This document shows, one piece after another, positions 7,242-31,274 of a stretch of DNA of 64,000 bases (its first letter is position 1; each line of letters opens with the position of its first letter). The stretch is from Frankiaceae bacterium (GTDB lineage Bacteria > Actinomycetota > Actinomycetes > BP-191), in the NCBI GenBank assembly GCA_035556555.1, contig DATMES010000012.1, forward strand, positions 1 to 64,000, given 5' to 3'. The notes below the pieces were generated by a model. It was not told the origin of the DNA and ran no database searches. It worked only from the letters and a program-made list of their open reading frames with translations. The translations under genes were made by a program, and so were the position numbers.

Positions 7242-7254
7242 CGAACGTGTGAGC

Positions 7255-7286
7255 GGCCATGGGGCGGGTAGCGCCGCCTCATGGCC
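7255..7286 (+). promoter_or_regulatory. hairpin that includes the start codon of the SRPBCC gene
   Basis: GGCCATGGGGCGG (7255-7267) pairs with CCGCCTCATGGCC (7274-7286) with one mismatch and a 6-base loop. The right arm contains the ATG at 7281. It could end transcription of the 39-aa peptide gene or hold the downstream start codon in a stem. Confidence 0.4.
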
Positions 7287-8174: not shown

Positions 8175-8185
8175 GGAGAACGAAC

Positions 8186-9355: not shown

Positions 9356-9364
9356 CAACGCGAG

Positions 9365-9403
9365 AGGCGCAGGGCGCGACGAGTCCCGCCGCACCCCGCG
9401 CCT
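9365..9403. terminator. hairpin between convergent genes
   Basis: AGGCGCAGGG (9365-9374) and CCCCGCGCCT (9394-9403) pair with one mismatch. The hairpin lies in the 60-bp gap between the dehydrogenase stop and the stop of the minus-strand exported protein, so it can serve both strands. Confidence 0.45.
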
Positions 9404-9415
9404 TCGCTGTCCGTG

Positions 9416-10704: not shown

Positions 10705-10838
10705 GATTTTGCCCCCTTCTGGGTAGGTATGGCGGGGGGATCGTGTCGGTGCGCCAGACGCGGGTCAAGGGAGGTTGCGGCCGCGCACGCACGACGCGCG
10801 AGAAGAAAAAGTCGTTGCACACCAGCGGATTCGGCGTG

Positions 10839-11351: not shown

Positions 11352-11491
11352 CGCTCCTCCTCGTGGTCGGCGCGTTACACCCCGAACGTACTTGTGCGTG
11401 GGGATCCCGGACCTTCGGCCCTGTCCCCGACGCCAGCGTTGCCTACTTCGAAGAGGCGGCGGTAGCGTGCCGCCTTCCGTACGGAGGCCCT

Positions 11492-14400
11492 ATGGCGACA
11501 ACGGGGGAACGAGCGCAGCAGCCTGGCGGTCCGGAGATCACCCGGGTCCGCTACGACGGCGGGATCCTCAGCGTCTCGTGGCTCGCCAGCCCCAACCCCG
11601 CCACCACGTACGTCATCAACGTCTTCGCCGACGGCCGCCCCCACCCGGTCGCGGTCGTCGAGGCCGGCCGCACGATGAACGGCTGGCTGCCGGTCGACCT
11701 CGTCCCCGGCCACGACTACACCGTCGCGGTCCAGGAGAAGACCGGCGAGTCGTCGCACGGCTGGTCGCAGTACGTCGCCGTCGTGCTCGACACCGGCGCC
11801 GTCACGCACGCGGACACCGACCCCGCCACCGGTGCGCTGACGCTCGCGACGCCGGGCACCGCCGACGAGACGTACCGGCTGCGGCTCGCGCTCAACGGCG
11901 CGCCGCCGGGACCGGAGACCGAGGTGCACGGCGGGTCCGCCGCGGTCCCCGCGCCGCAGCCACCGGGCTGCCTCGCCGCGGCGACGCTCGCGGTCGTCGT
12001 CGACTCGAACGACGCCGTCTCCATCGGCCCGTACGGCCCCGCGTTCGCGATCCCCACCGAACGTCCCAGCCTGCTCGCCGCCGACTTCGACGGCACGACG
12101 CTGACCGCCGCGTGGACGCCGGTGACCGGCGCGACGGCGTACCGCGTCACGGTGCTGAAGGACGGCACGAAGGACGCACAGGCAGACGTCGCTGCCCCCG
12201 CGACCACCGGCGCGGTTCGCGTCGCGCGGTCCTCGGCGGCGTACACCGTCGTGGTCCAGGCGGTGTCGTCGACCGGCAGCGGACCGGCGTCCGCGCCGCT
12301 CACCCTCGTCCTCGGCGCGCCGGCCGTGACGACCACGACGTACGACGGGGCGACGCTCACGCTCGACGTCACCCCGCCGTCCGGCGTGACCCCGGCGGCG
12401 TACGACGTGACGGTGCTCCGCGACGACGTCACGGTCGTCACGACGAGGGCCGGATCCGTTGCGCCCCTGCGGATTCCGCTGCACCAGCCGGTCGCCGAGG
12501 GCGCGTCGTACACCGTGTCCGTCCGGGCCCGCGTGGGTCCGACGAGCGGGCCCGCCGCGACCGCGCCTGTCGTGCTCGTCCCCGCCGACGTGACCTCCGT
12601 CGTCTGCGGCAGCGAGCTCGTCGTCACCGCCGCCCGCGGTGCGCTGCCGGCCGCAGCGGCGATCGACGCCGTCCTCTACACCGACGGCACGCCGGGTACG
12701 CCGCGGCGCGTCGAGGACGGCACGGCCCGCTTCGACGTACCGGCCGGCGCGGCGGCTGTCGCGGTCCGCGGCACCGACGGCGTCGCGACGGGGCCGTGGT
12801 CGGTACCTGTCCCCGCACCCACGGCGCCACCGGTCTTCACCGCCGCGCGCGCCGGCGGCGACGACGTCGCGCTGGCCTGGACGGGCACGGAGGACGCGAC
12901 GTTCCGGGTCGCGCTCGGCGACGCCGTGACGACCGTGCACGGCACCACCGCGAGCCTCCCGCTCGTCGCGGGGAAGGCGTCGGTCACCGAGGTCGCGGGC
13001 GTCGCGGAAGGACCGACGGTGAGTCTCGACGTCGTCGCCGCCGGGCCACTCCTGCGCTCCGCGACGACCCGCGCGGGCCGCCTCGTCACGATCCCGTGGA
13101 CCCCGCCCGCCGAGCCGCCGCTCGCGTCGGTGCAGCCGGTCGTGCGCTGGGACGGCACGGAGGTCGCCCTGCCAGCCACGGCCGACAACCCCGTCGTCCT
13201 CACGCTGCCCGAGGACGTACCCAACGCCGCGACCGTCGCGCTGCGCGGCATCGCCGGCGTCGCGACCGGCCCGCTCGGCAACGCCGCCACACTGCTCACC
13301 GTCGCGCCGGCCGGGCTCACCGTGACGTACGACGGCGAGTCCGTCGTCGCGACGTGGGACGCGACCGCCGACGCCGCCGTCGACCGCTACGCCGTCACGC
13401 TCCGCGCGCCCGGTGCCGACCCCGTCGTCGTCGTGACCGCCGAGCGGACGGCACGTATCCCGTACGCCCCGGAGACCGCGCCGGGCACGGCGCCGGCGGT
13501 GACGGTCGAGGCGATGGCCGGGGAGATCGCGCGCGGCGTCGAGAGCGCGCCGGTCGACGTCCTCGTCGCGCCGCCGGTCGTCACCGACGCGACGTACGAC
13601 GGCACCGGCCTGCGGCTGGCGTGGACCGGCGACGCGAGCACGTACCGCGTCGACGTCGCCGGCCGCGGGCTCGACATCGAGGGACACGAGGCCGTTCTCC
13701 CGATCCCGCCGGGACCCTGGACGGCCGCCGTCCGCGCGACCGCGGCGCACACCACCGGCGCGGCCGACTGCGTTCCCCTGATCACCGAGCAGCCGGCGCT
13801 CCACCCCGTCGCGTTCGACGCGCACAGCGGCGACGCGCGCCTCAGGTGGGACCCGCTGGCCGGCGCCACCGGCTACGCCGTGACCGTCACCGACGGCACC
13901 CACACCGTCGCGACGCACGACGTCACGGACGCGGAGTGCACGCTGCCTGCGAGCACGTTCGCGGCCGGCGGGACGTACGCCGTCTCCGTCCTCGCCACCG
14001 CCTCGACCGCGGAGCGCACCGTCGAGGGCCCGCCCGCGGCGACACCGCTGCTCGCCACTCCCCCGGCACCGGTCACCGCGGCGTACGACGGCGCCACCGT
14101 CCGCGCGTCGTGGGAGCCGGTCGCCGGCGCGAGCGGCTACCGCGTCTCGACGCTCGCGGGTACGACGGTCACCGCCCTCGGCGACACCGCCGCCACGTCG
14201 GGGCAGTGGCCGCTCACCACCAGCGACCTGGCGACGGGACTCGTCGTGCAGCCGCTGGCCGGCACCGCGGCCGGCGCGCCGTCCACGCCGGCGGCGGTGT
14301 TCCCTGCGTCACTGTTCGTCGGCTCGTCGTACGTCGCCCCGCAGTCGGGGCCGGCGCTGACGCCCGCCCCGATCACGCTGCTGCTGCCGCAGCTCTTCGC

Positions 14401-15433
14401 GACGGCGCCGGCGAAGGTCGACGGCCTGCCGCTCGGCATCACCCTGACGGCCACCGCGGGGCCGTACGCGTGGACGCTGACGATCCCCGCGACCAGCCCG
14501 GTGTGGACGTTCGGCGCGAGCCGCGCCGACGTGCCCGCCGCGTGGGTCACGCTCGTCACGCGGCTGCAGAGCCTCGGCGCGACGCCGTACGGCATCGCGG
14601 TCCTCACCGAGGCGGTGTCGCGGGCGCTGCCGCAGACGTTCGCGGAGACGCTGTACTTCGCGTACGGCCTGCAGTTCGCGCGCGGCTGCTTCGACCTGCG
14701 GCCCGGCGTCGTGCTGCGCGTCGAGTACGAGGGCTACCAGGTCGCGCCCGGCGCGCAGACGACGACGCTGTCCGGCTACGTCGCCACCGCCGTCGCCGAG
14801 TACGAGGTCGCGTCGTACGACCGCTCGGGTACGTGGACCAACGGGCTCGACGCGTTCCTCGCCGCCCTCACGCAGCGCGGCGTCACCGTGCCGAGCGTCC
14901 AGAGCGGGGCGCAGCAGGCGGGCGGCGGCGGGGCGCTCGACGCGTTCGCGACGACGATGCAGCTGCCGTTCGTCCGCCTGGTCTACCCGACGAAGTTCCT
15001 CGACACGACGTCGCCGGGCAGCGCGATGCCGCAGCTCAACGCCGTGCTGCTCGCCGGGGCGACCGTCGCCGCGGTGGAGGCCGCGACCGACCTCGTGCGC
15101 AAGGGGCTGCCGCCCGGCGCGGGTGTCGCGAAGACGTACTTCCGGGGGCGCACGGTCGTCAGCGCGCTGGTGCGGGTCGTCGTCGACGGCGTGCCGCGAC
15201 TCGTCCCGCTCGGCACCACGGTCGGCAACGTCCTCGCCGGGCTCGGCCGCCGCCCGCCGGCCGCCGCGCCGCTGACCGGCGTCACGCTACGCCGGCCGCG
15301 CGCGGCCGCGGTCACCGCCGAGGGACCGCAAGAGGACTGGGCCGTACGCCTCGACTGGACGCCCGGCGACCCGTCGCGGCTCGACCTGCCGCTGCTGCAC
15401 GGCGACCTCCTCGACACGGGTGGCGGGTCATGA
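11492..15433 (+). CDS. 1313-aa FN3/Ig-like repeat protein, first gene of the giant-protein cluster
   Basis: ATG 11492 follows GGAGG (11483-11487). The frame is open upstream, but that part reads as non-coding. Residues about 20-945 are roughly eleven repeats of about 85 aa with the FN3-like pattern (T)YDG.(T/S)L.(A/L).W.P at the start and Y.V.V(R/L)A..G at the end; examples are ADFDGTTLTAAWTPVTGATA and AAYDGATVRASWEPVAGASG. The last ~370 residues are a different domain (from SLFVGSSYVAPQSG) with mixed helix and strand, not recognised. There is no signal peptide, membrane helix or LPXTG. Its stop overlaps the next start (ATGA), so it is the head of a coupled operon. Binding or scaffold function is inference from the repeat type. 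Confidence 0.75.
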   Translation: MATTGERAQQPGGPEITRVRYDGGILSVSWLASPNPATTYVINVFADGRPHPVAVVEAGRTMNGWLPVDLVPGHDYTVAVQEKTGESSHGWSQYVAVVLDTGAVTHADTDPATGALTLATPGTADETYRLRLALNGAPPGPETEVHGGSAAVPAPQPPGCLAAATLAVVVDSNDAVSIGPYGPAFAIPTERPSLLAADFDGTTLTAAWTPVTGATAYRVTVLKDGTKDAQADVAAPATTGAVRVARSSAAYTVVVQAVSSTGSGPASAPLTLVLGAPAVTTTTYDGATLTLDVTPPSGVTPAAYDVTVLRDDVTVVTTRAGSVAPLRIPLHQPVAEGASYTVSVRARVGPTSGPAATAPVVLVPADVTSVVCGSELVVTAARGALPAAAAIDAVLYTDGTPGTPRRVEDGTARFDVPAGAAAVAVRGTDGVATGPWSVPVPAPTAPPVFTAARAGGDDVALAWTGTEDATFRVALGDAVTTVHGTTASLPLVAGKASVTEVAGVAEGPTVSLDVVAAGPLLRSATTRAGRLVTIPWTPPAEPPLASVQPVVRWDGTEVALPATADNPVVLTLPEDVPNAATVALRGIAGVATGPLGNAATLLTVAPAGLTVTYDGESVVATWDATADAAVDRYAVTLRAPGADPVVVVTAERTARIPYAPETAPGTAPAVTVEAMAGEIARGVESAPVDVLVAPPVVTDATYDGTGLRLAWTGDASTYRVDVAGRGLDIEGHEAVLPIPPGPWTAAVRATAAHTTGAADCVPLITEQPALHPVAFDAHSGDARLRWDPLAGATGYAVTVTDGTHTVATHDVTDAECTLPASTFAAGGTYAVSVLATASTAERTVEGPPAATPLLATPPAPVTAAYDGATVRASWEPVAGASGYRVSTLAGTTVTALGDTAATSGQWPLTTSDLATGLVVQPLAGTAAGAPSTPAAVFPASLFVGSSYVAPQSGPALTPAPITLLLPQLFATAPAKVDGLPLGITLTATAGPYAWTLTIPATSPVWTFGASRADVPAAWVTLVTRLQSLGATPYGIAVLTEAVSRALPQTFAETLYFAYGLQFARGCFDLRPGVVLRVEYEGYQVAPGAQTTTLSGYVATAVAEYEVASYDRSGTWTNGLDAFLAALTQRGVTVPSVQSGAQQAGGGGALDAFATTMQLPFVRLVYPTKFLDTTSPGSAMPQLNAVLLAGATVAAVEAATDLVRKGLPPGAGVAKTYFRGRTVVSALVRVVVDGVPRLVPLGTTVGNVLAGLGRRPPAAAPLTGVTLRRPRAAAVTAEGPQEDWAVRLDWTPGDPSRLDLPLLHGDLLDTGGGS

Positions 15434-18400
15434 GCGAGCCGGCGTTCACCCGTGACGGGACGACGGCGCTCTACTGGGCCGACCCCGCGGAGAGGGTCGC
15501 TGCCTTCCTCGCCACCGACCCGGACACGCTGGGCCCCGACCCTTCGCTCACCGCCACGTGGGGCGACGCCGGCGGCGCGTACGTCTTCCTCGGCGCGCCC
15601 GCCGGCGCGGCGTTCCTCGCCGACCTCACGACGTGGCTCGCCGACCACCGGCCGCAGGGGCCGCCGCGCTTCCTCTGGGTCGCCGACCCCGCCGCGCCGG
15701 TCACCGAGTGGCTCGTCACCGAGGTGCCGGTGACGGACGGTCTCGTCGAGACGACGATGTTCCAGCTCGCCGACTACGCGCTCGGCGTGACCGGCGGCAA
15801 CGCGATCGGGCCGGCCGAGTCGCCCGACGGCGGCTGGGGCTTCGTCCTCACCGACAGCGCGGAGTCGCCTGCGCTGACGCTGTACTCGCCGGTGGACGTC
15901 CTCTTCGCGCGCACCGGCACCGGCGTCCTGTCGATGACCGCGGGGCACACGGGCTCGTGGCGGTTCGTCCTCGACGCGGCCGCGGGCGGTGACGCGTTCA
16001 CGACGCTCGGCGCCGGCGTGCGGTTCTTCACTGCCGGCACCGACGGCTACGTCAACACCGTCCACTTCGGAGCCGTACGCCAGCCCGGCGACACCGCGCT
16101 CACGCTCTACGCCGAGGTCGACCCGCTACGGCCGTTCGACCGCGAGCGGACGTCGCTCGCGTTCCACTCGTGGGCCGGCGCCGGCACCCCGCCCCCGCTG
16201 GACTCCGGGTACGCCACCGCGCACGGCCACTCGATCACGCTGCAGCCGCAGGCGAGCGCGCGGCTGGTGTTCGGCTTCGCGCCGTTCTTCGTCGGCGAGA
16301 CCGTCAACGGCGGGTACTACTTCGTGCCCGACGGCGCGTTCGCGATCGGCCACTCGTCCGCCGGTGTGACGAGCGCCGACGGCATCGACCGCGTCGTCTG
16401 CGGCACGTCAGGCCTCGAGTACCTCGGCATCCCGCTGACCGGCGGCTGCGCGCTGACGTTCGTGCCGGGCCAGGCGGCGTACGCGCCGCTCGGCACCGCC
16501 ACCACCGGCGAGAACGCGCTGACGGAGCACGGCACGACGTCGTGGGTCTACGTCGAGTCGCCGCCGGAGGCGACGGTCCGCTACTACAGCCAGCCGGAGG
16601 ACGCGCCGCTGTTCTCCGCGCCGGACCCCGCGCGCAACCTCGCCGACGACACGTTCGACCTCCTCGACTTCTACGAGCTGCCCGCGGCGACGCTCCCGAG
16701 CACGTCGGCGGAGCCGGGCGTGGAGGTCGGCGCGACGCCGTTCCCGATGGCGCCGTTCCGCGGCCTCGCGATCGGTGCCGTCACCGACGCCGTCGCGATC
16801 GAGCAGCTAGCGCTCGCTCCGCGCCGCCGCGCCGCGCTGGTCACCGCGCCCGCGCCTCTCCGCGCGACCGCCGAGACGGTGAAGGTCGGCGTCACGCCAC
16901 AGGGCCTCGGCGTCGGCGTCGCGGCCGACGACGCGACGTGGACGTGGCTCGGCATCGGCCACACCGGCACCGCCGCGCCGGAGCCCGACCTGCGGTTCAC
17001 GACGGTCAGCGGGCCGTTCCGCCAGGCGATGCAGACCAACAACCTGTTCCTCGTCCTCGGCAACCCCACGGAGTTCGTGAAGCACGGCTCCGTCGCGTAC
17101 GAGCTCGACGCGCACGCGCTCGACGTCATCGGCACGCTGCCCGGTCCGCCGATCCCGAAGCCCGACCTCGACGCCGTGCGCGCGGCGATGGCCGGCAAGC
17201 CGTACGGCACGCGCGGCGAGTTCCTCACGGCGCTGCGCGCGGTGCGGCCGTTCACCGAGAAGCAGGAAGGCGTGTTTTTGCGCTACGCCGGGCAGCTCAC
17301 ACCGGTCGTCGGTGGCTGGCCGTTCCGCCTCTCCCCCGACAACTGGGGCGAGAAGACGTACGTCCTCATGAAGTTCGTGCTGGGGCGCAGCGTCGCCAAC
17401 CTCGTCCGCGACGTCTCGACGTGGGCGTGGCCCGAGGCCGCGTCGGCGACCGGCAAGCCGGCCGACGCGCAGACCGCGATCGCCGGCGTCATCGACGCCG
17501 CGCGTCAGGCCGTGACCGCCGCCCCGACGTCGCCGTACGCGAACTTCCTCACCGTCGTCGACGACCCCGACTGGACCGGCGTCCTCGCGCTCAACGTCGA
17601 CGTCCCCCTCGAACAGCTCCCGCCCGAGCTGCAGGTGCTCGCCGCCGGCATCGACGCGACGCGCTTCGGCGCGCACCACTTCGGCATGTCCGTGACGCCG
17701 TACAAGGTCCTCGAAGGACGGATCGCGTTCGAGCGCTCGTCGATGTTCGGGCTCATCGACTACCTCAACCCTGAGGACCAGTACTTCGACGAGAACATCG
17801 CGTACGCGTTCCGGGTGCTGCAGCTCACGGTCGGCATCCGCAACTCGGCGGTGACGACGTTCACGAGCCGGGCCGAGCTGCTCGTCAACCGGCTGTTCGG
17901 CGCGTCGGCGCGCCTCCTTCCGACGGCGCACGGCAACAACGTCATCCTCGACGGCGCGCACCAGCGCCAGCGCCTGCCCGACGGCACGGAGCACGACACG
18001 TACGTCTTCTCGATGTCGGGCGACAACCTGTTCAACCTCGACGGCGCGGTGCTGCGCAGCGTCGAGCTGCTCGCGCTGCAGCTCGTCACGGCGAAGGCGT
18101 CCGACCCCGCGTCGGGGACGGCGGTCGTGGACGCGGTGTTCCAGCTGTCGGGCAACCTGCGCTTCTACGAGCCCGCGGGCTTCGACCCGTTCTGCTGGGG
18201 CCCGCCGCTCGCCGGGGGCCACGACTCGTACCTGCGGTTCGGCAACCTCGCGATCGGCATGACGTTCGCGCTCGGCGACCCCGCGAACACGACGGTGTTC
18301 ACGCTCAAGGACGGCAACCTGTCGTTCGACCAGGCCAACAGCGTCGCGCGGCCTGGCTCGCTCGTCGCGCGGTTCCCGATCCGCCTCAGCGGGCTGGTCG

Positions 18401-18984
18401 CGACGGCCGACCCGGTGCTCTCGCCCGCGGCGCCGCCGCAGACGCCCGCGGACCTCGGGTACGTCGGCGTCACCGCCCCCCTCGAGCAGTCGGCGCTGTC
18501 ACAGCCCTGGTACGGCCTCGACTACACGATCGACCTCGGCACGCTGGGCGCCCTGGCCGGCAGCAAGGCGCTCGCGGTCCAGGTGCTCGTCGCGTGGAGC
18601 CCCGGCAAGGACGGCGGCGACCCGTCGGTCGCGATGGGCGTCAAGCTGCCCGGAGCGAAGGACGTCCTCGGTGTCAGCCTGCCGCTGCAGGGCGTCGTGA
18701 AGATGGGCTTCAAGGGCATCGAGTTCCTCGTCGACGACACGCCGGGCGTCGAGCGCTCGTACACCGTGCGGATGCGCGACTTCGCGCTGCGGCTGCTCGG
18801 GCTCGCGTTCCCGCCCGGCCACAACGACGTCATCCTCTTCGGCAACCCCGACCAGAGCGGCTCGTCCAAGGTCGGCTGGTACATGGCGTACGCCTCCGAC
18901 GCCGACCCCAAGCGCCCGCCCCCACCACCGACACGCGCCGAGGTTACGCGCCGCCGCGCGGCACTCCGCGGAACGGGAGGCTGA
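15430..18984 (+). CDS. 1184-aa protein of unknown family, second gene of the giant-protein cluster
   Basis: ATG 15430 overlaps the stop of the FN3-like gene. The frame is open far upstream through that gene, but the upstream translation is arginine-rich shadow sequence, so the overlap start is chosen. I recognise no domain. The protein is rich in beta strands with many G-A/D-G turns, and has a proline-rich acidic/basic tail (KRPPPPPTRAEVTRRRAALR). Notable segments are NGGYYFVPDGAFAIGHSSAG (about 295), YLNPEDQYFDENIAYAFRVL (about 778) and the C-terminal FGNPDQSGSSKVGWYMAYAS. It has no signal peptide and no membrane helices. It lies 2 bp before the MBL hydrolase gene and so is almost certainly made together with it. 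Confidence 0.7.
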   Translation: MSEPAFTRDGTTALYWADPAERVAAFLATDPDTLGPDPSLTATWGDAGGAYVFLGAPAGAAFLADLTTWLADHRPQGPPRFLWVADPAAPVTEWLVTEVPVTDGLVETTMFQLADYALGVTGGNAIGPAESPDGGWGFVLTDSAESPALTLYSPVDVLFARTGTGVLSMTAGHTGSWRFVLDAAAGGDAFTTLGAGVRFFTAGTDGYVNTVHFGAVRQPGDTALTLYAEVDPLRPFDRERTSLAFHSWAGAGTPPPLDSGYATAHGHSITLQPQASARLVFGFAPFFVGETVNGGYYFVPDGAFAIGHSSAGVTSADGIDRVVCGTSGLEYLGIPLTGGCALTFVPGQAAYAPLGTATTGENALTEHGTTSWVYVESPPEATVRYYSQPEDAPLFSAPDPARNLADDTFDLLDFYELPAATLPSTSAEPGVEVGATPFPMAPFRGLAIGAVTDAVAIEQLALAPRRRAALVTAPAPLRATAETVKVGVTPQGLGVGVAADDATWTWLGIGHTGTAAPEPDLRFTTVSGPFRQAMQTNNLFLVLGNPTEFVKHGSVAYELDAHALDVIGTLPGPPIPKPDLDAVRAAMAGKPYGTRGEFLTALRAVRPFTEKQEGVFLRYAGQLTPVVGGWPFRLSPDNWGEKTYVLMKFVLGRSVANLVRDVSTWAWPEAASATGKPADAQTAIAGVIDAARQAVTAAPTSPYANFLTVVDDPDWTGVLALNVDVPLEQLPPELQVLAAGIDATRFGAHHFGMSVTPYKVLEGRIAFERSSMFGLIDYLNPEDQYFDENIAYAFRVLQLTVGIRNSAVTTFTSRAELLVNRLFGASARLLPTAHGNNVILDGAHQRQRLPDGTEHDTYVFSMSGDNLFNLDGAVLRSVELLALQLVTAKASDPASGTAVVDAVFQLSGNLRFYEPAGFDPFCWGPPLAGGHDSYLRFGNLAIGMTFALGDPANTTVFTLKDGNLSFDQANSVARPGSLVARFPIRLSGLVATADPVLSPAAPPQTPADLGYVGVTAPLEQSALSQPWYGLDYTIDLGTLGALAGSKALAVQVLVAWSPGKDGGDPSVAMGVKLPGAKDVLGVSLPLQGVVKMGFKGIEFLVDDTPGVERSYTVRMRDFALRLLGLAFPPGHNDVILFGNPDQSGSSKVGWYMAYASDADPKRPPPPPTRAEVTRRRAALRGTGG

Positions 18985-18986
18985 CC

Positions 18987-20147
18987 GTGCCGAGCCTCAC
19001 GCTGGTCAAGATGCTCTACTGCGGCCAGGGCATGATGACGCTGATCGAGGTCTACAACGACGGCGTCGAGAAGCCGGCCGCCGACCACCTCGCGCTCGTG
19101 GACTGCGGCGGCAGCTCGGGGACGCCGACCGACGACTCCCTCAACTACATCGTCACGAAGGTCACCGCCCAGGCCGCGAAGAAGCTCGCCTGCGTCGTCA
19201 TCTCGCACCAGGACGCCGACCACGTCCGCTACCTCGGCCTCCTCGGCGGCATGCTCCCCTCCGGCACGACCGTCGACCGGATGGTCCTCGGCGGCGTGCA
19301 GTGGGGCGGCCCGAGCAAGGGCGCGGTGTCGACGTTCGCCAAGGCCGTCGGCTACGACGAGAAGGACATCTACTGGCCGGCGAAGGGTGGGAGCGACTAC
19401 CCGGACGACGGCGACGCGGGCAAGGTGGGGTACCAGTCGAAGCTCGGCGACACGTACCTGCGGCTGGTCGTCAGCGGGCTCACCGTCGGCGGTGTGGACA
19501 TCAAGAACGTGTCGTCCGCGGTGATCGCCGTCGACAACGGGTCGTACCGCGCCGTGCTGCCCGGCGACGCGACCGTCGAGACGATGCGGTACGTCAACAA
19601 GATGACGAACATCGCGACGCTGCTGCGACCCGTGGTGGCCGTGTCGATCCCGCACCACGGCGCCCTGCGGACCGCCGTCGAGAACTACCTCAGCTACAGC
19701 AAGGGCGGCCGTGTCGACGACTTCGACTACGACGTGCTCGAGGACTTCGCCGACACCCTCGACGCGACGCGGGCGGGGGCGAGCGCGGGGCCGTACAACA
19801 GCCATCACCACCCGATGGAGGAGGTGATGGACCGGTTCTACCGGAGCACCGCGCTCAGCGAGGAGCACAAGTACGTCTCGTGGATGTTCGACGACCAGGA
19901 CTGGAAGGGGTGGAAGGCGAGGCGGGCCGCGTACTCCACCGTCCAGCGGATCCGCACGTTCGCCGAGAACGACACGGTCGGCAAGAAGTCCTCCAACGAC
20001 CACGGCGCGTTCATCTACGGCGACGTCGTCTGCAAGCTCGCGGCGCCCGGCGTCCTGCGCGACGAGGAGATGGTCGAGTTCCGTCCGCGCGGCACCCTCG
20101 GCCACCCGGCCGCGGAGGACCCTGTCCGCTACGCGCAGGAACCGTAG
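18987..20147 (+). CDS. metallo-beta-lactamase-fold hydrolase (ComEC-tail-like), third gene of the cluster
   Basis: The 386-aa product starts at GTG 18987, 6 bases after GGGAGG. It has an early strand pair (LVKMLYCGQGMMTLIEVYN), ALVDCGGSSGT, and the zinc-binding HxDxDH motif in VVISHQDADHVRYL (about residues 71-84). A second block VLPGDAT (about 191) and VVAVSIPHHGAL (about 217) follow, as in the soluble MBL domains related to ComEC/Rec2 and stand-alone hydrolases. The family includes nucleases, phosphodiesterases and lactonases. There is no membrane domain and no signal peptide. Its tight packing between two giant structural-looking genes makes it the only obvious enzyme of the cluster. Confidence 0.8.
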   Translation: MPSLTLVKMLYCGQGMMTLIEVYNDGVEKPAADHLALVDCGGSSGTPTDDSLNYIVTKVTAQAAKKLACVVISHQDADHVRYLGLLGGMLPSGTTVDRMVLGGVQWGGPSKGAVSTFAKAVGYDEKDIYWPAKGGSDYPDDGDAGKVGYQSKLGDTYLRLVVSGLTVGGVDIKNVSSAVIAVDNGSYRAVLPGDATVETMRYVNKMTNIATLLRPVVAVSIPHHGALRTAVENYLSYSKGGRVDDFDYDVLEDFADTLDATRAGASAGPYNSHHHPMEEVMDRFYRSTALSEEHKYVSWMFDDQDWKGWKARRAAYSTVQRIRTFAENDTVGKKSSNDHGAFIYGDVVCKLAAPGVLRDEEMVEFRPRGTLGHPAAEDPVRYAQEP

Positions 20148-20156
20148 GGGCACGCC

Positions 20157-23100: not shown

Positions 23101-26100
23101 GCGTGTCGTTCGCCCTCGAGGCCGGCATCTTCAACGGTCGCGGCGGCATATACTTCGGTGTCCTCAACGGCGCCACGTCCAGCCGCGTGCCGCGCGTCAC
23201 CAACGGCACGTTCAGCCCGGTCATCGAACTCGGGGTCGGCCTGTCGGTCGGCGTCGGGCGGACGTTCGAGAAGGGCCCGCTCAAGGCCGGCCTCTACGTC
23301 AACCTCGTCGTCGTCTTCGAGGGCGCGCTCGCGTGGTTCCACCCCGACGACGGCAACGCCGGCACCGAGATGTACTACTGGTGCCGCGGCACCGCGGGCA
23401 TCGTCGGCAAGATCTACGGCTCCGTCGACTTCAAGGTCATCAGCGTCGACGTCAGCATCGAGATCTCCGCGATGGCTACGTTGGAGCTGACGGCACACAA
23501 GGCGACGCTGGTCGAGCTCGACCTCTCGGTCCGCGCCAGCGCCAGCATCAAGATCGTGTTCTTCCGTGTGTCGTTCTCGTTCTCACTGACCCTGCGGACG
23601 TCGTTCGTGATCGGGTCGGACAGCCCGGCCCCGTGGCAGGAGGTACCGGGGATGACGTTGCGCCGCAGGCTCGCCACGGCGGCCGCGCGCGGGGAGCTGC
23701 CGGAGTCGTACCGGCTGCGCTTCGACAAGGACGCGAAGGTCTTCCCCGACGGCCTGCCGCGCACGGCGTACCTCTCGCTCGTGCCCGCGTACACCGTCGC
23801 GGACGTGCCGGTGAACTGGACCGGCGACGGCACCGTCCCCGCCAACGCCGACCCGGCGTACCGCCTCGTCGTCATGCTCGTCACCGACAACGCGATCCCC
23901 GCCGACGCCGCCACGATCGCGGCGACGTACCGGCCCGACGTGTCGCGCAACGCGCTCGCCGAGACCGCCGCGGACACGTCGTTCAACCAGCTCACCGAGG
24001 CGCTGCTGCGCTGGTCCCTCAACGCGCTCGGCGTCACCGACCCGACGGCGACCGTCACCCTCGCCGACCTCACCGAGCTCGTCGCGCAGCTCGCGCTCGA
24101 CGAGGCCGCCACGACCGGCTTCACGTGGGACAACGTCGAGGGCTTCCTCGCGCACAACCTCCACGTCGTCGTCAGCGGTACGCCCTCCGGGCCGATGGGG
24201 GACGAGGTCTCCGGCACGCCGTTCCCGATGCTCCCGCCGCTGTCGTGGACCTCGCCCGACCTGCCGGACCCGGCGCAGCGCGAGCGCGACTTCGGTACGT
24301 ACCAGCCGATCGACGCGACGTACGAAGCCGAGGCCCTCGCGTACTTCGCGAAGCTCGACCCGCGCCCGCCGGAGGGACGCCCTTCGGTCGAGGCGCGGCT
24401 CGCGGCGGCGGCCGACCCGTCGGAGTCGATGGCGACGTTCGTGCTGCGCGACTACGCGCGGCTGGTCGCGCGCGCGGCGGCGCAGGCGGCCGCCGACCTG
24501 CTCACGGCGTTCCCGCACGACGTCGTGCCGGCCGACTCGCTGGGGGGCATCGCGCAGGCGTACGGCGTCGACCCCGGAGCCGTCGCCATCGCCAACCCCG
24601 ACTGGCCGGTCGAGGCCGGCAAGCCCGTGCACCTCGGCACGCTGCCGGTGCAGGTCGGGGCGACCGACACGCTCGCGTCGATCGCGCAGGCGTACGGCAC
24701 CGGCCTGCCTGCATGGCTCGCGACACTCGACGCGACGACGCCGCTGCTGCGCGCGGGCGCGACGATGCCGCTGCCCGGCTTCCGCCACGCGGGGCTGTCC
24801 GTCGACGACACCGCAGCGGTGTTCTACGTCCGCCTCGGCATGGCGCTGCCCGAGGACGTGCCGCTCGCCGACTGGTACGCCGCCGCCATCGGCCGGCTCA
24901 ACACCGAGGAGACGCTCCCCGCGAGCCTCGTCGTCCCGACCGGCTACCAGCAGACCACGACGACGACGTGGACCCGGCTGCCCGGCGACACCGTGGCCGA
25001 TGTCGCGGCGTACCTCGCGCTGTCGCAGAACGTCGTCGACAGGACGCCGTACGCCGCCTGGCTCGCGAAGGTGCGCGAGGCCAACCCGACGCCCGGCACC
25101 GACGTCGCGCTGCCCGCCGACGCGGTGGCTGTGGTGCTGCCCAACGACACCCTGGCCACGCTGCGCGCGCGGCTGCTGACCGACGCGACGGCGTTCGCCA
25201 CGTACGTCGCGCCGGCCGACGTGCTCGTGCCGCTCGTCACGGTCGACGTGCCCGGCGCCGTGGGCACGACTGCCGAGAAGCAGACGCTGCTGACGCTCGC
25301 GCAGGCGTACGGCCTCGGGCTCGAGGACCTCGCGGGCCGGATGGCAGGCGACACCGGCGTGCTGGCTGCTGGCGACAAGCCGCTGACCGTGCCGGACGTC
25401 CCGTCGATGCCCCTCGCCGGACTCATGACGGCGCTGCACGGCGGCCGGCCGATGGCGACCGTGAGCGGGCAGGTCGCGCGGTTCATGCTCAACGGCCTCC
25501 GGCTGCCCGCGCCCGAGCTCGGCGAGGACGGCAAGTACCACGCGAACGGCGCGATGACCGGGGCGTACGACCTCGTCGGCCAGCAGGTCACGGGCCCGGC
25601 GCCGGCTCCGGAGCCCCCGCCGGGCGACGACCCCGCGCCCGCCGTCGTCACGATCACCGTCGGCAAGGCGCGGCCCGCGGACTGGCTGACGTTCGCGGCC
25701 GCGGAGGTCCGCGAGTCGCTGCTCACCGTCGCCGGCGCGACGGAGAACGCCGTCGTCAGGATCACCGAGGCCGACCTCGCCAACTACCCCGCGACCGGCC
25801 TCGCACCGGTCGTCCTCGAGCCGCTCGCACCGCTCGCGCTGTCGCACGACGTCGGCGTCCGCTACGGCGTCCCGCACGTCATCCCATGGCAGACGACCGA
25901 CGTGCCCCTCCTGCCTGTGCCGCCCGCGGCCGGCGTCGCGCCGAGCCTCTGGCCGCTGCCCGCCGACCTGCGCGCGCGGGCGTCCGGCGGGGTCAGCGCG
26001 TCGCGGTTCCTGCTGGAGCAGACGACGCCGCAGAGCGGTCCCGCCGCGACGCCGACGGAGGTCGGGTCGTACGCCTGGGGCACGCTCGTGGCGTTCGGCG

Positions 26101-29100
26101 TGCGCCGCATCCCCGGCCTGCAAGGCACCGTCGAGGTCCTCGGCGCGGACACCGCCGACCGGCAGCGGCTCGCGCTGCTGCTGGAGTACCTGCGCGCGGT
26201 CCCCGAGCGCGACGCGGTCGCGGCGTTCCCCCCGCCGCCCGAGGGAGAGACGGCGCACCTGCGGCTGCTGTGGCAACTGCCCCCGACGCCCGGCATGGCG
26301 CCGGGCCTGTCGTCGGTCCCGCTCGTGCCGGAGGGGACGTTCCTCGTCCAGACCAACCTCTCGACGGAGACGCGCAGCGCGCTGACCACGACCGCCGACC
26401 CGACGTGGGGCAGGCACTTCGCGTCGGTCGCCGACGCGCCCCGGTTCCTCACGCTGCTCTGGCAGTGCAGCGTCGTCGGCGGCGGCGGGTACTGGATGCG
26501 CGTCCAGGGCACGGGCGCCGGCGTTCCCGAGTCGATCTTCGACCAGGACGGCCTCGCGACGCTCTCGCTGCTCGTCCAGCTCGGCTCGCAGTCGACGGGC
26601 TCACCCGACCGGCACCTGTACGCGTTCAACGACGTCGCCGTCGTCGGCTCCGGCATCGACCCCGCGTCGGTGGCGCTGACCGCGCGCGCCGAGCCCGCCG
26701 AGCTGAAGCCGGTCGCGTCCGTCGACCCCGGGCAGGTCGGCTTCGCCGCGGCGTACGCCAACCCCGGCGCCGACGACACGCCCCAGGGCCTGCTGCGCAG
26801 GCTCTACGGGCTGCTCGGGTTCCGCCTCACGCCGACGGAGGCGTTCGACGGCAGCGAGGAGGGCAGGCCGGTCGCGCCGCAGCCGCCGAACAGCCACGAC
26901 GACCTCGGCCTCGTCGTGCACGCCGAGGAGGACGAGGCGGTCTGGCGGCTCTCGCGCGTCCTCGACGCGAGCCGCTTCGCGCGGCTGCACCTGCCGGAGC
27001 TGCCGACCGCGCCGTCACCGCTGGCCGACCCGTACGCAGGGATCGCACCCGCGGCCGCGACCGAGGTGTCGGTTAGGTTCCAGGACGTGTTCGGCAACGT
27101 CTCCGGCACGCCCGCGACCGAGCCGATCCCCGTGCGCTACACCGACCCGCTCCTCGGCCCAGGCTCGTGGCCGTCCACGACGGCGAGCTACACCGTCGCG
27201 CCGAGCGGCGGCGCGGCCGAGGTGCGGGTCGCCGTGGAGCTGCAGACGGTGGCGTACCAGCCTGGTGCCTCCGGCCCGGGGAGCGCCGCGGCCGCGGCGG
27301 CGGCGCGCGACCGGCAGCGGTTCGCGGCGGCGTACTACCAGGTCATGCGCGACGGCCTGCACGTCTCGGTGCTCACGTCGCTGCAGCAGGCCCCCGGTGC
27401 GGAGCCTGCGCCGCTGCCCGTCGACGCCGGAGTGCTGCGCCGCTACGTCATTGCCGCCCACGCGCTGCTCGGGTCGGTCGCGACGATCGGCGACGCGCGC
27501 GCGACCGGCGGCACGCTCGACGACGTCGTGGCGGCGTACGGCGTCGACTCCGACACCCTCGCCGTGGCCAACGCCTCCGCGGTCCTCCGCCAGCTGCTCG
27601 ACGCGACGTCGCTCGCCGTCCCCGTCAGCGCGGCGTTCCGCAACGGCGACACCGTCGCCGGCCTCTGCGACACCGTCTCGCCGCGTCCCGACCCCGTGAC
27701 CGTGCTGACCGACGAGGACAACGTCGTCCTCCCGCTCATGCCCGGCACCGAGGTCGTCAGGCCGCCGCGCGACCTCGTCGTCGGGGAGGGCGAACCGTCC
27801 GCGCGCGACCTCGCCGAACGGGCGCGGTGCACGCTCGCGACCCTCGTCGCGGCGAACGAGACCCGCCATGGCCTCCTCACCCCGGAGTTCGTCTTCGAGG
27901 TCAACGGCGTGCCGGTCAAGGTCGGCAGCGACACGACGCTGGAGCTGGTCGCGCAGGCGTTCGGCACGACGTACGACGCCGCGCAGGTCGTCGCGCTCAA
28001 CGCCGAGAAGCCAGGCATGTTCCGCCCCGACGCTGCGCTGGTGGTCGACGGCTACGTCGTCGCCAACGGCGACACCCTGGAGAAGAACGAGGCGGAGCTC
28101 ACGCCCGCGCAGCTCGCGCCGCTCAACACCGCGACCGCGAACCTCTTCCCCCCGGGCACGCCGCTGTTCCTCACGACGCGCGCGACCGACGTCCCCGATG
28201 GCGTGACGCTCGGCGAGTTCGCCTCGGCCCACGGCACGACGCCCGGCGCGCTGCTGCGGCACAACGGCTCCGTCGCGGTGTCGACGACCTCACCGCCGGT
28301 CGTTCCCGGCACGTGGGCGTGGCCCGCCGACCTCCGCGACGTCGTGGTGCCGTACGTCGTCCGGGCGGGTGACGCGCTCGCCGAGGTCGCGAAGCACTTC
28401 GACGGCGCGTCCGCGCGGTCGCTCGTCACCGTCAACGCCGCCATGCCCGGCACCGTCGCCGCCGGCGTCACGATCACCGTCGACGCGCGCGACGTGACGA
28501 CGTCCGCGCCGTCGTCGTTCGCCGAGGTCGCCGCGCTCTTCTCCCCCGCCGTCTCGCTCGACGCGCTCGCCGACGCGGTCGCGGCGCGCACCGACGTCCT
28601 CGCCGCCGGCGCTCTGCTCGTCTGCCCGCGCGGCGTGCTGACGGCCACGGCCGACCCTGGCGCCGCGGCAGCGCCGTACGGCGTCTCCCCCGTCGCGCTC
28701 CTCGCCGCCAACGCCGGCACGCCGGACCTGCTCGTGGCCGGCGAGACGCTGCACGCGTGGCCCTCCACGGCCGAGTCGCCGGCGCCGGCCGAGACCGTCG
28801 CGGCGCACGACACCCTGACCGCGGTCGTCGAGCGCTTCCGCCGCCGCGGCGTGTCCACGAGCATCGAGACCCTCGTCACGGCGAACGCCGACCGGGCGTT
28901 CCTGCGCGGCGGCGCGGCGGTGCTCGTACCTCCCGCCACCGCGAGCCTCGACGCGCGGGTCGGCGACACCGGGTGGACGTTCCCCTCGACCGTCTTCCCG
29001 CTGCGGGTCACGCTCGAGCTGGCGCGCGACACAGACCTCGTCGACCCGGCGCTCGCCGCGACCGCGACGCGCGACCGCACAGCCGTGCCCGCGGCACGTC

Positions 29101-31274
29101 CCGCGGGCGACCGGGGCGAACGCTCGCTCACGTCGTTCGCCGCCGCCGTCGAGAACGCCGTGCCCGTGCTGCGCGTCGCGACCGGCCAGGTGCTCGACGC
29201 GGACACCGACGTGTGGGCCGTGGTCTTCGGCGCGGCCGGCATCGCGAAGGTCGCGATGGCGCCGCCGCTCACGATCGAGGGCACCAAGCAGCCGAGGACG
29301 TTCGCGATCCGCCCGCTCTCGACGACGCTCATCGCGCGGACCGAGGTGTTCACGAAGACGCTCGACCTCGCGACCGGCACGCTCACGGGCGGCGAGAAGC
29401 GCAACTACCAGGGCATCGACCTCGACGTCTGGGCGCGCGGCTTCCTCGCCGACGTCGAGCTGGTGCTGTCGGCGGCGTACACCCGCGGCGCGTACGCCCT
29501 CAACCGCCCCGCGCTCGACGCGATCGTCGAGGCGAAGAAGACCCTCGCGGGCGCTGTGGCGCAGGGCCTGGACGACGTCCTCGACGGTTTCACGGCACCC
29601 ACGGACAAGCGCGCGGCCGCGGTCGAGACGCTGCGCCAGCAGCTCCTCGTCTCGCTGACCCGCGGCAACGACACGTCTGCCGTGATCCAGTACGACACCG
29701 ACGTGACGTCGCCGTGGCAGACGACGTACGCGCGGCTGTCGGGCAACCCCGTCGTGACGTTCGGCGAGTCCGACGTGCGCAGCGCCACCGTCTCCAACGG
29801 CAAGGTCGCACTGACGAACGGCGCCTCGCAGGTGAGCTTCCTCGTCAACGTGCCCGACGTACGCGCGCACGCCGGGCTCGACCTCACGCTCGACTTCAGC
29901 GTCGTCGAGCTGGAGTTCGGGATCGCCCCCGAGGTCGAGGGGTACGAGCGCTCCGACTGGCTGACGTTCGTGTCCCCGGTCGCGAACGGCTCGCCGTCAC
30001 AGCTGCACCTCGACCTCGGCTCGCCGCGGGTGCCGCTGCCGCTGCGCGCGTACCCGCCGATGCCGCTGCTCGTCGGCCACGACGCGGTCGTGCCCACCGA
30101 GCCCGCGGTGCTCGACGACGCGCTGCACTGGCGGTACGAGTTCGCGCTCCAGCACCAGTCGGCGGAGCAGGACTCCGTGGAGTTCCGCGTGACGTTCAAC
30201 CAGGCGGGCTCCGCCGTCGCCAACGCGCTGACCGACGACGACCTGTTCGCGACGCTCGCGCAGTACACGGCCGTCTCGACGCCGCTGCTCGGCCTGCTCG
30301 CCGGCGTCGTCGACTGGGAGCGCGCGAGCGAGGCGCAGCGGGCCGTGCTCGCCGCGGCACTGGCGACGTACGAGACGCTGGTCACCGACGTCGCGACCGC
30401 ATGGGCCAAGCACTGGACCCCGCCGCCGGCACTGGTCTCCCCCGCCGGCGACGCGGCCGTCGCTGGCGGTCCCGCGCTCGACGTGTACCAGTACGCGCTC
30501 GGCCTGCGCGCCACCGACGACTGGTACACGACGCTGCGGCTCACCCGCACGACGCTCTCCGGCTCCGGCGGCGTCGGCTGGCCGGACGTCGTCTGCGTCA
30601 CGCCCTCCGGCGACGAGTACCCGCTCGAGCTCGTCCCGCGGGAGGCGTGCGACTGCGCCGACCAGGAGACGTGCCACTGCTACGCGTTCCCGCCGGCGAC
30701 CGTGACGGCGTTCACGCTGCTGACGTTCCGCTTCACGTTCCCGCGCGTGCACGTGGCGTCGTACCAGAACGCCTCGTCGGCCACCTGGGTGACGCGCAAC
30801 GCGACGCTGCTCGGCGAGACGTGGCCGGACACGACGACGGACTTCGTCTACCGCACGCCGGAGGTCGGCTACCCGAAGCCCGTGGTGCCGTTCATCGACG
30901 TCACCGGCGCCATCCCGATCGGAGCCTGGCCGGACGCGCCGTTGCAGGCGATGTTCGACGCGGTGTTCGACGGCGACGCGACGAAGCGGACCATCGGCGT
31001 CGGCGTGCGGTACGGCTACACGCTGGTCCCCGGTGACCCGCCCGTCGAGGCGCTGCTGCCCGTCGCGCAGTCGACGCTGGCGCCGTACGACGCCGCCACC
31101 ATCCCCGCGATCACGGAGCGGCTGACCGAGTGGCTGCGCGACGTGGACCCGGCGCGCGAGGGCGGGGCGTGGGCGTTCTGGGTGAGCCTCTACTCGTCGC
31201 TCGACCCGACGCTGCAACGCCCCGTCCTGCAGCTCAAGCGCCTGTCGTCACCGCTGGTGCGGCCGCCCGGCTGA
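20157..31274 (+). CDS. 3705-aa giant beta-rich protein with two LysM-like arrays, fourth gene of the cluster
   Basis: GTG 20157 follows TAGGGG, 9 bp after the hydrolase stop. Residues 1-1150 are beta-rich (for example VTVDIYTNGNFRVDLGFPHN at about 960) and unlike any domain I can name. From about 1450 to 1780 and again from about 2440 to 2930 run degenerate LysM-like units with the pattern GDT(L/V)..(I/V)A..YG(V/T)....(L/V)...N followed by a hydrophobic strand, such as ADSLGGIAQAYGVDPGAVAI and SDTTLELVAQAFGTTYDAAQ. Residues 1800-2400 and 2950-3705 are again beta-rich. A cysteine cluster CDCADQETCHC sits near 3498-3508. No signal peptide or membrane anchor is present. LysM units usually bind N-acetylglucosamine polymers, but in phage and contractile systems they also serve as structural hubs. 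Function unknown. Confidence 0.75.
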   Translation: MSVQSILEAFQRAAAAGALAGDDPAGLGDLLASLGTTRLEVAGGATGSDDTSAWLTGTATFLPGSTWTLRLTGTPVAGTERAALVLDLTLLPGATPWTFGGAFGTLPQSRRPAAGGNGLVLGASVVAPLVLVEPALVATNEPAGTLPRLSGTLPLRGSKDAPGSDLLAGYAGYLGDALYVDGTVDLRTAARVLQLRGVAPGLTIPLGRLDVPAVGIVLTTTFPDPFPLPAQGAPTSAALLFADVALPTKPPRIVTISGQLLAGDFQWALQAEFEKVLTLEGGIAALLAIAGVDNADDFALPPGIAAINAFGLSDVGFGVLPPARGGPSITYTSIGVKSATPWDPPVPYLTIEEVGTRWLFLPDPARTIVTGSVFGTMRLGAKKGPSLGAMPSYATRVERGLVVPDADAGDILFTVSLSLPGLAFSAYTEEPFSVTEALKTFFPGKEVPELGLTVRSMSIYAALPRKEFEAGLSLSTDLSFTAGRVRFAFETLDLNVFVSQSSVTGTFVGLASIGVPGAPPVELLAQAAYPGTGAWELGAVLRGRIDLPRFVYALMDTDPPEWVERITVVLADLDLRYSTAPGNPYSAAGTLELAMDENLLGIPMKLTLTAKIQRAVRTPATEPLAVALRETSLVEPTTVLTGSLEGSFTVGRFVVAASVSVTDAGKDYTFAVTYRDVSLKAATSWIPAAGSVPRHQAVTIRLTGTLGDVVTYLVGLANPNANFRLDPPWDFLNSIDLSGLALVVDPTLQTVAVTYDVKLNLGFVTIDTVGLKYDRSTATPKVEFVLVAKMLGDTQAKPVVWDAVNQSPPAVPGLGQRLLDLRYLGLGQHVRPTKLTEYKDITAVVDALVAAMRPVDPGKGKPPIDPATMEFDPSSQWLFGIDAKFMDTVSLKLVFHDPDLYGILVALSGPSASSLAGLSIELLYKKVTDDIGVFHARLQIPDAFRQLQFGAVSVTLGIVTVDIYTNGNFRVDLGFPHNRDWSVSFALEAGIFNGRGGIYFGVLNGATSSRVPRVTNGTFSPVIELGVGLSVGVGRTFEKGPLKAGLYVNLVVVFEGALAWFHPDDGNAGTEMYYWCRGTAGIVGKIYGSVDFKVISVDVSIEISAMATLELTAHKATLVELDLSVRASASIKIVFFRVSFSFSLTLRTSFVIGSDSPAPWQEVPGMTLRRRLATAAARGELPESYRLRFDKDAKVFPDGLPRTAYLSLVPAYTVADVPVNWTGDGTVPANADPAYRLVVMLVTDNAIPADAATIAATYRPDVSRNALAETAADTSFNQLTEALLRWSLNALGVTDPTATVTLADLTELVAQLALDEAATTGFTWDNVEGFLAHNLHVVVSGTPSGPMGDEVSGTPFPMLPPLSWTSPDLPDPAQRERDFGTYQPIDATYEAEALAYFAKLDPRPPEGRPSVEARLAAAADPSESMATFVLRDYARLVARAAAQAAADLLTAFPHDVVPADSLGGIAQAYGVDPGAVAIANPDWPVEAGKPVHLGTLPVQVGATDTLASIAQAYGTGLPAWLATLDATTPLLRAGATMPLPGFRHAGLSVDDTAAVFYVRLGMALPEDVPLADWYAAAIGRLNTEETLPASLVVPTGYQQTTTTTWTRLPGDTVADVAAYLALSQNVVDRTPYAAWLAKVREANPTPGTDVALPADAVAVVLPNDTLATLRARLLTDATAFATYVAPADVLVPLVTVDVPGAVGTTAEKQTLLTLAQAYGLGLEDLAGRMAGDTGVLAAGDKPLTVPDVPSMPLAGLMTALHGGRPMATVSGQVARFMLNGLRLPAPELGEDGKYHANGAMTGAYDLVGQQVTGPAPAPEPPPGDDPAPAVVTITVGKARPADWLTFAAAEVRESLLTVAGATENAVVRITEADLANYPATGLAPVVLEPLAPLALSHDVGVRYGVPHVIPWQTTDVPLLPVPPAAGVAPSLWPLPADLRARASGGVSASRFLLEQTTPQSGPAATPTEVGSYAWGTLVAFGVRRIPGLQGTVEVLGADTADRQRLALLLEYLRAVPERDAVAAFPPPPEGETAHLRLLWQLPPTPGMAPGLSSVPLVPEGTFLVQTNLSTETRSALTTTADPTWGRHFASVADAPRFLTLLWQCSVVGGGGYWMRVQGTGAGVPESIFDQDGLATLSLLVQLGSQSTGSPDRHLYAFNDVAVVGSGIDPASVALTARAEPAELKPVASVDPGQVGFAAAYANPGADDTPQGLLRRLYGLLGFRLTPTEAFDGSEEGRPVAPQPPNSHDDLGLVVHAEEDEAVWRLSRVLDASRFARLHLPELPTAPSPLADPYAGIAPAAATEVSVRFQDVFGNVSGTPATEPIPVRYTDPLLGPGSWPSTTASYTVAPSGGAAEVRVAVELQTVAYQPGASGPGSAAAAAAARDRQRFAAAYYQVMRDGLHVSVLTSLQQAPGAEPAPLPVDAGVLRRYVIAAHALLGSVATIGDARATGGTLDDVVAAYGVDSDTLAVANASAVLRQLLDATSLAVPVSAAFRNGDTVAGLCDTVSPRPDPVTVLTDEDNVVLPLMPGTEVVRPPRDLVVGEGEPSARDLAERARCTLATLVAANETRHGLLTPEFVFEVNGVPVKVGSDTTLELVAQAFGTTYDAAQVVALNAEKPGMFRPDAALVVDGYVVANGDTLEKNEAELTPAQLAPLNTATANLFPPGTPLFLTTRATDVPDGVTLGEFASAHGTTPGALLRHNGSVAVSTTSPPVVPGTWAWPADLRDVVVPYVVRAGDALAEVAKHFDGASARSLVTVNAAMPGTVAAGVTITVDARDVTTSAPSSFAEVAALFSPAVSLDALADAVAARTDVLAAGALLVCPRGVLTATADPGAAAAPYGVSPVALLAANAGTPDLLVAGETLHAWPSTAESPAPAETVAAHDTLTAVVERFRRRGVSTSIETLVTANADRAFLRGGAAVLVPPATASLDARVGDTGWTFPSTVFPLRVTLELARDTDLVDPALAATATRDRTAVPAARPAGDRGERSLTSFAAAVENAVPVLRVATGQVLDADTDVWAVVFGAAGIAKVAMAPPLTIEGTKQPRTFAIRPLSTTLIARTEVFTKTLDLATGTLTGGEKRNYQGIDLDVWARGFLADVELVLSAAYTRGAYALNRPALDAIVEAKKTLAGAVAQGLDDVLDGFTAPTDKRAAAVETLRQQLLVSLTRGNDTSAVIQYDTDVTSPWQTTYARLSGNPVVTFGESDVRSATVSNGKVALTNGASQVSFLVNVPDVRAHAGLDLTLDFSVVELEFGIAPEVEGYERSDWLTFVSPVANGSPSQLHLDLGSPRVPLPLRAYPPMPLLVGHDAVVPTEPAVLDDALHWRYEFALQHQSAEQDSVEFRVTFNQAGSAVANALTDDDLFATLAQYTAVSTPLLGLLAGVVDWERASEAQRAVLAAALATYETLVTDVATAWAKHWTPPPALVSPAGDAAVAGGPALDVYQYALGLRATDDWYTTLRLTRTTLSGSGGVGWPDVVCVTPSGDEYPLELVPREACDCADQETCHCYAFPPATVTAFTLLTFRFTFPRVHVASYQNASSATWVTRNATLLGETWPDTTTDFVYRTPEVGYPKPVVPFIDVTGAIPIGAWPDAPLQAMFDAVFDGDATKRTIGVGVRYGYTLVPGDPPVEALLPVAQSTLAPYDAATIPAITERLTEWLRDVDPAREGGAWAFWVSLYSSLDPTLQRPVLQLKRLSSPLVRPPG

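Follow-up and report, generated by a model that had tools for sequence, protein, structure and literature searches.

The window examined here is a 64,000-nucleotide stretch of a Frankiaceae bacterium genome (GenBank assembly GCA_035556555.1, contig DATMES010000012.1, positions 1 to 64,000), and it contains a compact operon of four genes, which we designate A to D (Table 1). All four lie on the forward strand; A and B overlap by 4 bp, and gaps of 2 and 9 bp separate B from C and C from D. These sizes and spacings confirm the tight coupling described in a first-pass annotation made from the sequence alone. Long chance open reading frames (ORFs) occur in this DNA, which has a GC content of 72%, an example being an 847-aa antisense ORF over A. 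Genes A to D are real genes because each has homologues in other genera that occupy corresponding relative positions.

A Pfam scan of the window proteins identified FN3 in A (3.8e-17), LysM in D (2.7e-9; 37.3 bits against a cut-off of 20.9), and a sub-threshold Lactamase_B match in C (0.02), and it returned no match for B. Protein C carries the motifs HQDADH, GDA, and PHHG. The initial description of an FN3-like A, an unrecognized B, and an HxDxDH-type C is therefore borne out. No system-component name was assigned to A, B, or D by NCBIfam, PHROGs, or PADLOC, and D matched no Pfam, NCBIfam, or PHROGs family apart from LysM.

Table 1. Features of the operon in window coordinates
Feature	Position	Strand	Description
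Gene A	11492..15433	+	1313 aa; FN3-like array and conserved C-terminal domain; proposed binding module, accessory of the MBL clade
Gene B	15430..18984	+	1184 aa; beta-rich core scaffold protein without known family or fold
Gene C	18987..20147	+	386 aa; ComEC-like MBL-fold metallo-hydrolase in the exchangeable enzyme slot
Gene D	20157..31274	+	3705 aa; core giant with beta repeats, invariant long-strand core, LysM-like repeats, and C-terminal region
D residues 701-1160	22257..23636	+	most conserved segment of the system
First LysM-like stretch, D ~1454-1896	24516..25845	+	best Pfam match at 1454-1480; degenerate repeats by sequence; end approximate
Second LysM-like stretch, D ~2532-3004	27750..29170	+	BLASTP self-similarity to the first stretch in homologues; bounds approximate

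The operon recurs widely. When 84,980 species genomes were scanned with the B alignment, 39 loci emerged, and in almost all of them an enzyme-sized gene and then a giant gene follow B. Searching 72,556 plasmid records with B by tblastn gave eight matches (Tistrella, Embleya, Nostoc, Paenibacillus, Lysinibacillus, Mycetohabitans, and two Azospirillum), and a separate tblastn search with residues 701–1160 of D returned the identical eight records. One IMG/VR contig, found through the D core, has B as well. Removing two duplicates from the genome loci and adding the window, a genus mate (G002), the eight plasmids, and the IMG/VR contig gives 48 distinct loci. These span Actinomycetota, Pseudomonadota, Bacteroidota, Bacillota, Cyanobacteriota, Acidobacteriota, and Verrucomicrobiota, and the carriers include plant- or soil-associated Pseudomonas, Burkholderia, Streptomyces, Chitinophaga, Nostoc, and Azospirillum. 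The giants of the other loci are homologous to D of the window by BLASTP (by tblastn for Mycetohabitans); a few contigs stop before or within D. Spacing in the relatives is similarly tight, with medians of 1.5 bp between B and C (30 loci) and 21 bp between C and D (27 loci).

Proteins B and D are inherited together and were never found apart in the searches made. The first-pass annotation had proposed that the four genes form one machine, a proposal against which the separate occurrence of single genes would count, and for B and D no such separation was seen. The proposal is supported by this constant pairing and by the B–C–D order across seven phyla. What recurs in the 48 loci is the B–C–D order; A lies outside the core and behaves as an accessory of one clade of loci.

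Distribution within lineages is sparse. The system was present in 1 of 396 genomes of a phylum-wide sample, and one of two genus mates carries the operon while the other is without it. A tree of B intermixes phyla, placing Chitinophaga beside Sphingomonas, Streptosporangiaceae beside Xanthobacteraceae, and Streptomyces together with the window beside Magnetospirillum and Tistrella. This mixing indicates horizontal spread of the operon across phyla. Two scans of viral contigs with B gave no match, nor did phage records, and the neighbors of the operon on the IMG/VR contig, judged by eye, include no phage structural gene; a viral origin was accordingly set aside. Among the plasmid copies, that of A. 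lipoferum lies near SIR2 and CRISPR III-B genes, and that of Lysinibacillus is followed ~10 kb downstream by nucleotidyltransferase and E2/UBC genes.

The position occupied by C in the window is an enzyme slot that holds two unrelated folds. Across the 48 loci, 21 encode a ComEC-like metallo-beta-lactamase (MBL) fold protein at this position, 22 encode a DNase I-like protein of the endonuclease/exonuclease/phosphatase (EEP) group, and five have no enzyme there (Paenibacillus, Lysinibacillus, Mycetohabitans, Azospirillum B510, and the IMG/VR contig). Slots that seemed empty through gene calling were resolved by tblastn. The original view of a machine built around one MBL hydrolase does not hold, because about half of the loci use an EEP protein instead and five use neither.

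The MBL metal ligands H74, D76, D78, H79, D194, H223, and H224 are invariant in 16 homologues. In the EEP proteins, which are about 370–500 aa long and match Exo_endo_phos in Pfam with values down to 1.3e-8, the catalytic residues N8, E59, H241, N279, D363, S455, and H457 are conserved, and D277 and D456 nearly so. Retention of these residues in both classes suggests that the MBL and EEP proteins are maintained as active enzymes. When compared with solved proteins, the MBL profile has the MBL domain of ComEC as its nearest relative (1.4e-8), with a weak match to Pce (E 0.01), and the EEP profile matches DNase I (2.8e-5) and sphingomyelinase (3.9e-5), with a further match to a designed protein limited to residues 67–107. 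These nearest relatives make phosphodiester cleavage the predicted common chemistry of the slot.

On the B tree, the state of the slot changes at least four times and the MBL loci form two separate groups; fewer changes are required if only strongly supported branches are counted, and the tree has several rows on long branches. The main MBL clade comprises 18 rows with a Shimodaira–Hasegawa-like approximate likelihood ratio test (SH-aLRT) value of 99, and the Chitinophaga MBLs stand apart from it. In the three Chitinophaga loci (L036–L038) the enzymes belong to another subfamily, occur as a tandem pair, and carry Sec-type signal peptides, which sets them apart from every other C protein. A tandem pair of MBL genes is also present in genus mate G002.

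The B family (~1200 aa) has 45 homologues with 21 invariant columns. Pfam searches of 39 members found nothing beyond two chance-level matches. An AlphaFold2 model built from 39 sequences (predicted local distance difference test score (pLDDT) 85.6, predicted template modeling score (pTM) 0.71) is beta-rich, with long strands past residue 750. Foldseek searches of this model against the PDB and viral models found no meaningful relative (template modeling score (TM) about 0.1). Comparisons of B with D and with the partners of DUF6603 giants gave no relation.

Members of the D family range from 2500 to 4100 aa. Within residues 701–1160, mean identity to the window protein is 0.27–0.58 across phyla, peaking in bins 901–1050, as against ~0.2 elsewhere. 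An AlphaFold2 model of residues 250–1400 (pLDDT 77.3, pTM 0.42), weaker than the model of B, places six strands of 17–23 residues each in a row at residues 1017–1152. The core strands are amphipathic: hydrophobicity alternates with a period of two in the alignment (p ≤ 0.002 for four of the six strands), and three strands within residues 1095–1152 have faces near +3.4 and −1.5 on the Kyte–Doolittle (KD) scale. The top Foldseek matches of this segment in the PDB are ApoB100 (E 3.4e-5), LptD, VDAC, and MTP, all at TM about 0.1, and they are informative for the beta-belt character of the predicted structure only. Both LysM-like stretches reported earlier were recovered, the first by Pfam and the second by self-similarity in homologues. 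LysM was detected in 12 of 16 D members (E ≤ 0.01), and residues 2633–2705 weakly match a solved LysM endopeptidase (E 0.13).

Upstream of the core, gene content varies. The A family has 19 members, and nearly all conserved columns fall in the C-terminal third, where a domain at about residues 960–1313 ends in LPLLHGD. The N-terminal part is variable, with fn3 modules in 11 of the 19 members and a Laminin_G_3 lectin module (1.5e-19) in one. A match of A to a PHROGs tail protein (3.6e-7) is limited to the FN3-like residues 192–273. Within the loci seen, A occurs only in the MBL clade; a short gene resembling a relative precedes one EEP locus (L027), and the Nostoc copy is divergent. This architecture suggests that A is an exchangeable binding module carried on a docking domain. 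Many MBL loci outside the clade of the window have an extra upstream gene encoding a Hint-domain protein of 550–630 aa (below the Pfam cut-off), located directly upstream of A (L018, 4988–6730; L019, L020, L022–L026, and L047). These proteins have a conserved Cys at the start of the Hint domain and a C-terminal AGGIxxGD that replaces the HN of inteins, suggesting hedgehog-like autoprocessing. At EEP loci, mostly small unrelated proteins are encoded in place of A or the Hint protein; the small gene has no similarity to the C-terminus of A, with which we had tentatively equated it. Weak Pfam matches to A2M and DUF4992 in the family scans were taken as noise.

Signal peptides were called by a simple rule rather than by SignalP. 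By this rule, none was found in 45 B, 43 D, and 19 A homologues, and the window proteins A to D have neither an LPXTG motif nor a Sec-type N-terminus. The reported absence of signal peptides and sorting motifs thus stands in the window and, for signal peptides, extends to the homologues of B, D, and A. The reported lack of membrane helices stands for A, B, and C, which contain no 19-residue stretch above KD 1.8, and not fully for D, which has a single hydrophobic patch at residue 119 (KD 2.19). Sec-type signals are present on all six C enzymes of Chitinophaga, and several upstream partners in Gram-negative bacteria carry signal peptides as well. The active part therefore appears to work outside the cytoplasm, at least there.

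The operon in the window is preceded by genes for a Polyketide_cyc protein and an alcohol dehydrogenase and followed by genes for RibD_C, oxidoreductase, and TetR proteins. Because these flanks are ordinary metabolism and regulation, the unit consists of the four genes. A second MBL-fold protein, unrelated to C, is encoded nearby at 34592–35398 on the forward strand (Lactamase_B 1.8e-10, ODP-like). Farther away, positions 50941–55353 on the reverse strand hold another long ORF (1470 aa) with coding-like composition.

We favor, with a probability of about 0.42, a reading in which B and D form an assembly that is made in the cytosol, released non-classically, and carries an exchangeable phosphodiesterase, probably a nuclease, to an extracellular or target-cell substrate. 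Here B and D would assemble into a giant beta-rich complex that carries or anchors C as its single metal-dependent active part, and A would supply binding to a target or matrix. The LysM stretches of D and the FN3 and lectin modules of A may attach to envelope or matrix. A groove or a membrane-inserting barrel could arise from the long amphipathic strands of the D core, and C would cut a phosphodiester substrate such as DNA. The complex would probably act outside the producer, much as complexes released by lysis do. A non-classically released particle with one enzymatic component was already put forward in the first-pass annotation; it fits the missing signal peptides of the B, D, and A homologues, and the particle and its release are a matter of interpretation.

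Several observations weigh against this reading. Neither an export route nor a lysis gene or particle was found, and no immunity gene was identified, though one would be expected for a free DNase. That only the enzyme bears a signal peptide in Chitinophaga does not sit well with a particle preassembled in the cytosol, and the slot enzyme is missing in five loci. LysM and FN3 modules do not prove an extracellular location. The "barrel or groove" derives only from strand length and pattern, since the model of D is of low overall confidence (pTM 0.42).

An alternative that we regard as doubtful is a surface or extracellular complex for scavenging or remodeling, in which C would degrade extracellular DNA, teichoic acid, or phospholipid in phosphate or matrix turnover while A and D anchor it to wall or matrix. 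The MBL profile meets Pce, a teichoic acid phosphorylcholine esterase, and the EEP profile meets sphingomyelinase; LysM in D, FN3 and LamG in A, and the Sec signals on the Chitinophaga enzymes and several upstream partners would suit such a role. However, the giants have no Sec-type signals or sorting motifs in any lineage, and a frequency of 1 in 396 genomes of the sampled phylum is unlike that of a housekeeping function.

We consider it unlikely that B and D instead form an intracellular antiphage or antiplasmid complex that senses or binds an invader, with C as an exchangeable nuclease effector. Such a defense role would account for the patchy, horizontally moved distribution with many plasmid copies, the absence of signal peptides from A, B, and D, and the proximity of some loci to defense-like genes (SIR2 and CRISPR III-B; nucleotidyltransferase and E2/UBC). 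Protein C also resembles the MBL proteins of defense systems, among whose effectors folds are likewise exchanged. Yet no NTPase, nucleotide-binding, or sensor domain was found in A, B, or D, none of which matches a PADLOC model. Modules of the LysM, FN3, and lectin types are not known from defense systems, and the Chitinophaga enzymes are exported by Sec.

Less plausible still is a lipid- or envelope-bridging giant, in which the D strands would provide an ApoB- or LptD-like hydrophobic belt for lipids and C would be a phospholipid or nucleotide phosphodiesterase. The leading Foldseek matches and the opposed polarity of the strand faces at residues 1095–1152 point in this direction, but the low TM and pTM values speak for beta-belt character only, and LysM and FN3 are left unexplained. 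That the genes are unrelated surface-type genes and merely chance neighbors is very improbable: loci outside the MBL clade lack A or have other genes in its place, and C changes fold, but the order of B, C, and D in 48 loci and the joint presence of B and D in every searched record oppose it.

Under the favored reading of a released B and D assembly, the system might represent an undescribed class of delivery particle, in which two giants of new fold, spread horizontally over seven or more phyla, carry a payload that has been replaced by a nonhomologous enzyme of the same chemistry; we advance this tentatively. No Pfam, NCBIfam, or PHROGs entry names the B and D families, for which we could find no solved structural relative and which were linked in every case. 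Four genes of the window thus lead to a new system spread over many genera. Because one phosphodiesterase fold has replaced another at a constant place in the operon, the chemistry of the system is pinned down and its function is directly testable. Our literature search found no paper describing the operon, a weak absence since few subscription papers and no preprints were covered. Within that partial coverage, the system appears to be previously unnamed: no source searched describes the two giant families, their operon, or the exchange of enzymes, and the folds of the single enzymes are known.

The first-pass annotation suggested comparison with extracellular contractile injection systems (eCIS), Tc toxins, and type VI secretion systems (T6SS), and by family search the outcome is negative. 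The operon resembles all three in joining giant proteins without signal peptides to a payload, and eCIS contain a LysM protein. No phage-tail sheath, tube, or baseplate family was found in A to D or their homologues, and no spike or AAA ATPase family in A to D; no TcA, TcB, TcC, or Rhs family matched any member in Pfam; and VgrG, Hcp, TssB/C, and ClpV gave no match in A to D. Of 24 carrier genomes, 13 have a match to the sheath family PF04984 above cut-off; the sheath is thus not obligate, and we rejected the operon as eCIS cargo. The genome of the window has its own PF04984 sheath gene (1.9e-19) away from the operon (contig C2, 39551–39958), possibly part of an eCIS or a prophage.

The enzymes have closer counterparts. 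Protein C shares the MBL fold and metal motif of ComEC/Rec2, including the HxDxDH, GD, and HH ligands, and differs in standing alone, without a membrane channel, within a giant-protein operon. It is a ComEC-like MBL-fold hydrolase, with predicted nuclease activity. The alternative slot occupants keep the catalytic N, E, D, N, and H of the EEP family; the operon members are longer and are linked to B and D. The fold of C is also similar to that of effectors in Lamassu (LmuA), Avs1, and reverse transcriptase-associated MBL defense proteins (PADLOC: RTasMBL 1.9e-5, LmuA 4.2e-5, Avs1a 0.008; NCBIfam: Avs1a and 6A-MBL). The partners in those systems, the LmuB SMC ATPase and the Avs STAND NTPase, have no PADLOC match in A, B, or D.

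A further comparison concerns the DUF6603 (PF20248) giants, the likely nearest relatives of D, whose operons occur in bacteria and haloarchaea, including plasmids of haloarchaea, Rhizobium, Streptomyces, and Paenibacillus (L071–L074), and for which the searchable literature describes no function. D scores below the Pfam gathering score for this family, with no match in the genome of the window and two homologues at best E 0.0075. Most of the DUF6603 operons seen have other large partners and no MBL; the counts leave out an EEP gene that lies near DUF6603 in L068, on the opposite strand. In L066 (13912–17189), an Actinomycetota genome, two small Hcp-like (T6SS_HCP) proteins are encoded beside a 3234-aa DUF6603 giant. 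Locus L067 (5511–18378) is a sister-type operon without a B homologue, in which an MBL gene is followed by a DUF6603 giant (7207–11805) and then by giants of 952 and 1227 aa. The MBL gene lies directly upstream of the DUF6603 giant, and its product has the Chitinophaga C enzymes as relatives (E 8e-11). By hhalign, the D profile aligns with this giant at 96% probability (E 2.8e-9) over 166 columns of a beta region N-terminal to the DUF6603 domain, and the end of the D core aligns with the C-terminus of DUF6603 at 54% (E 1.3e-4). D is likely a distant relative of the DUF6603 giants, which makes their operons a sister lead rather than members of the same system.
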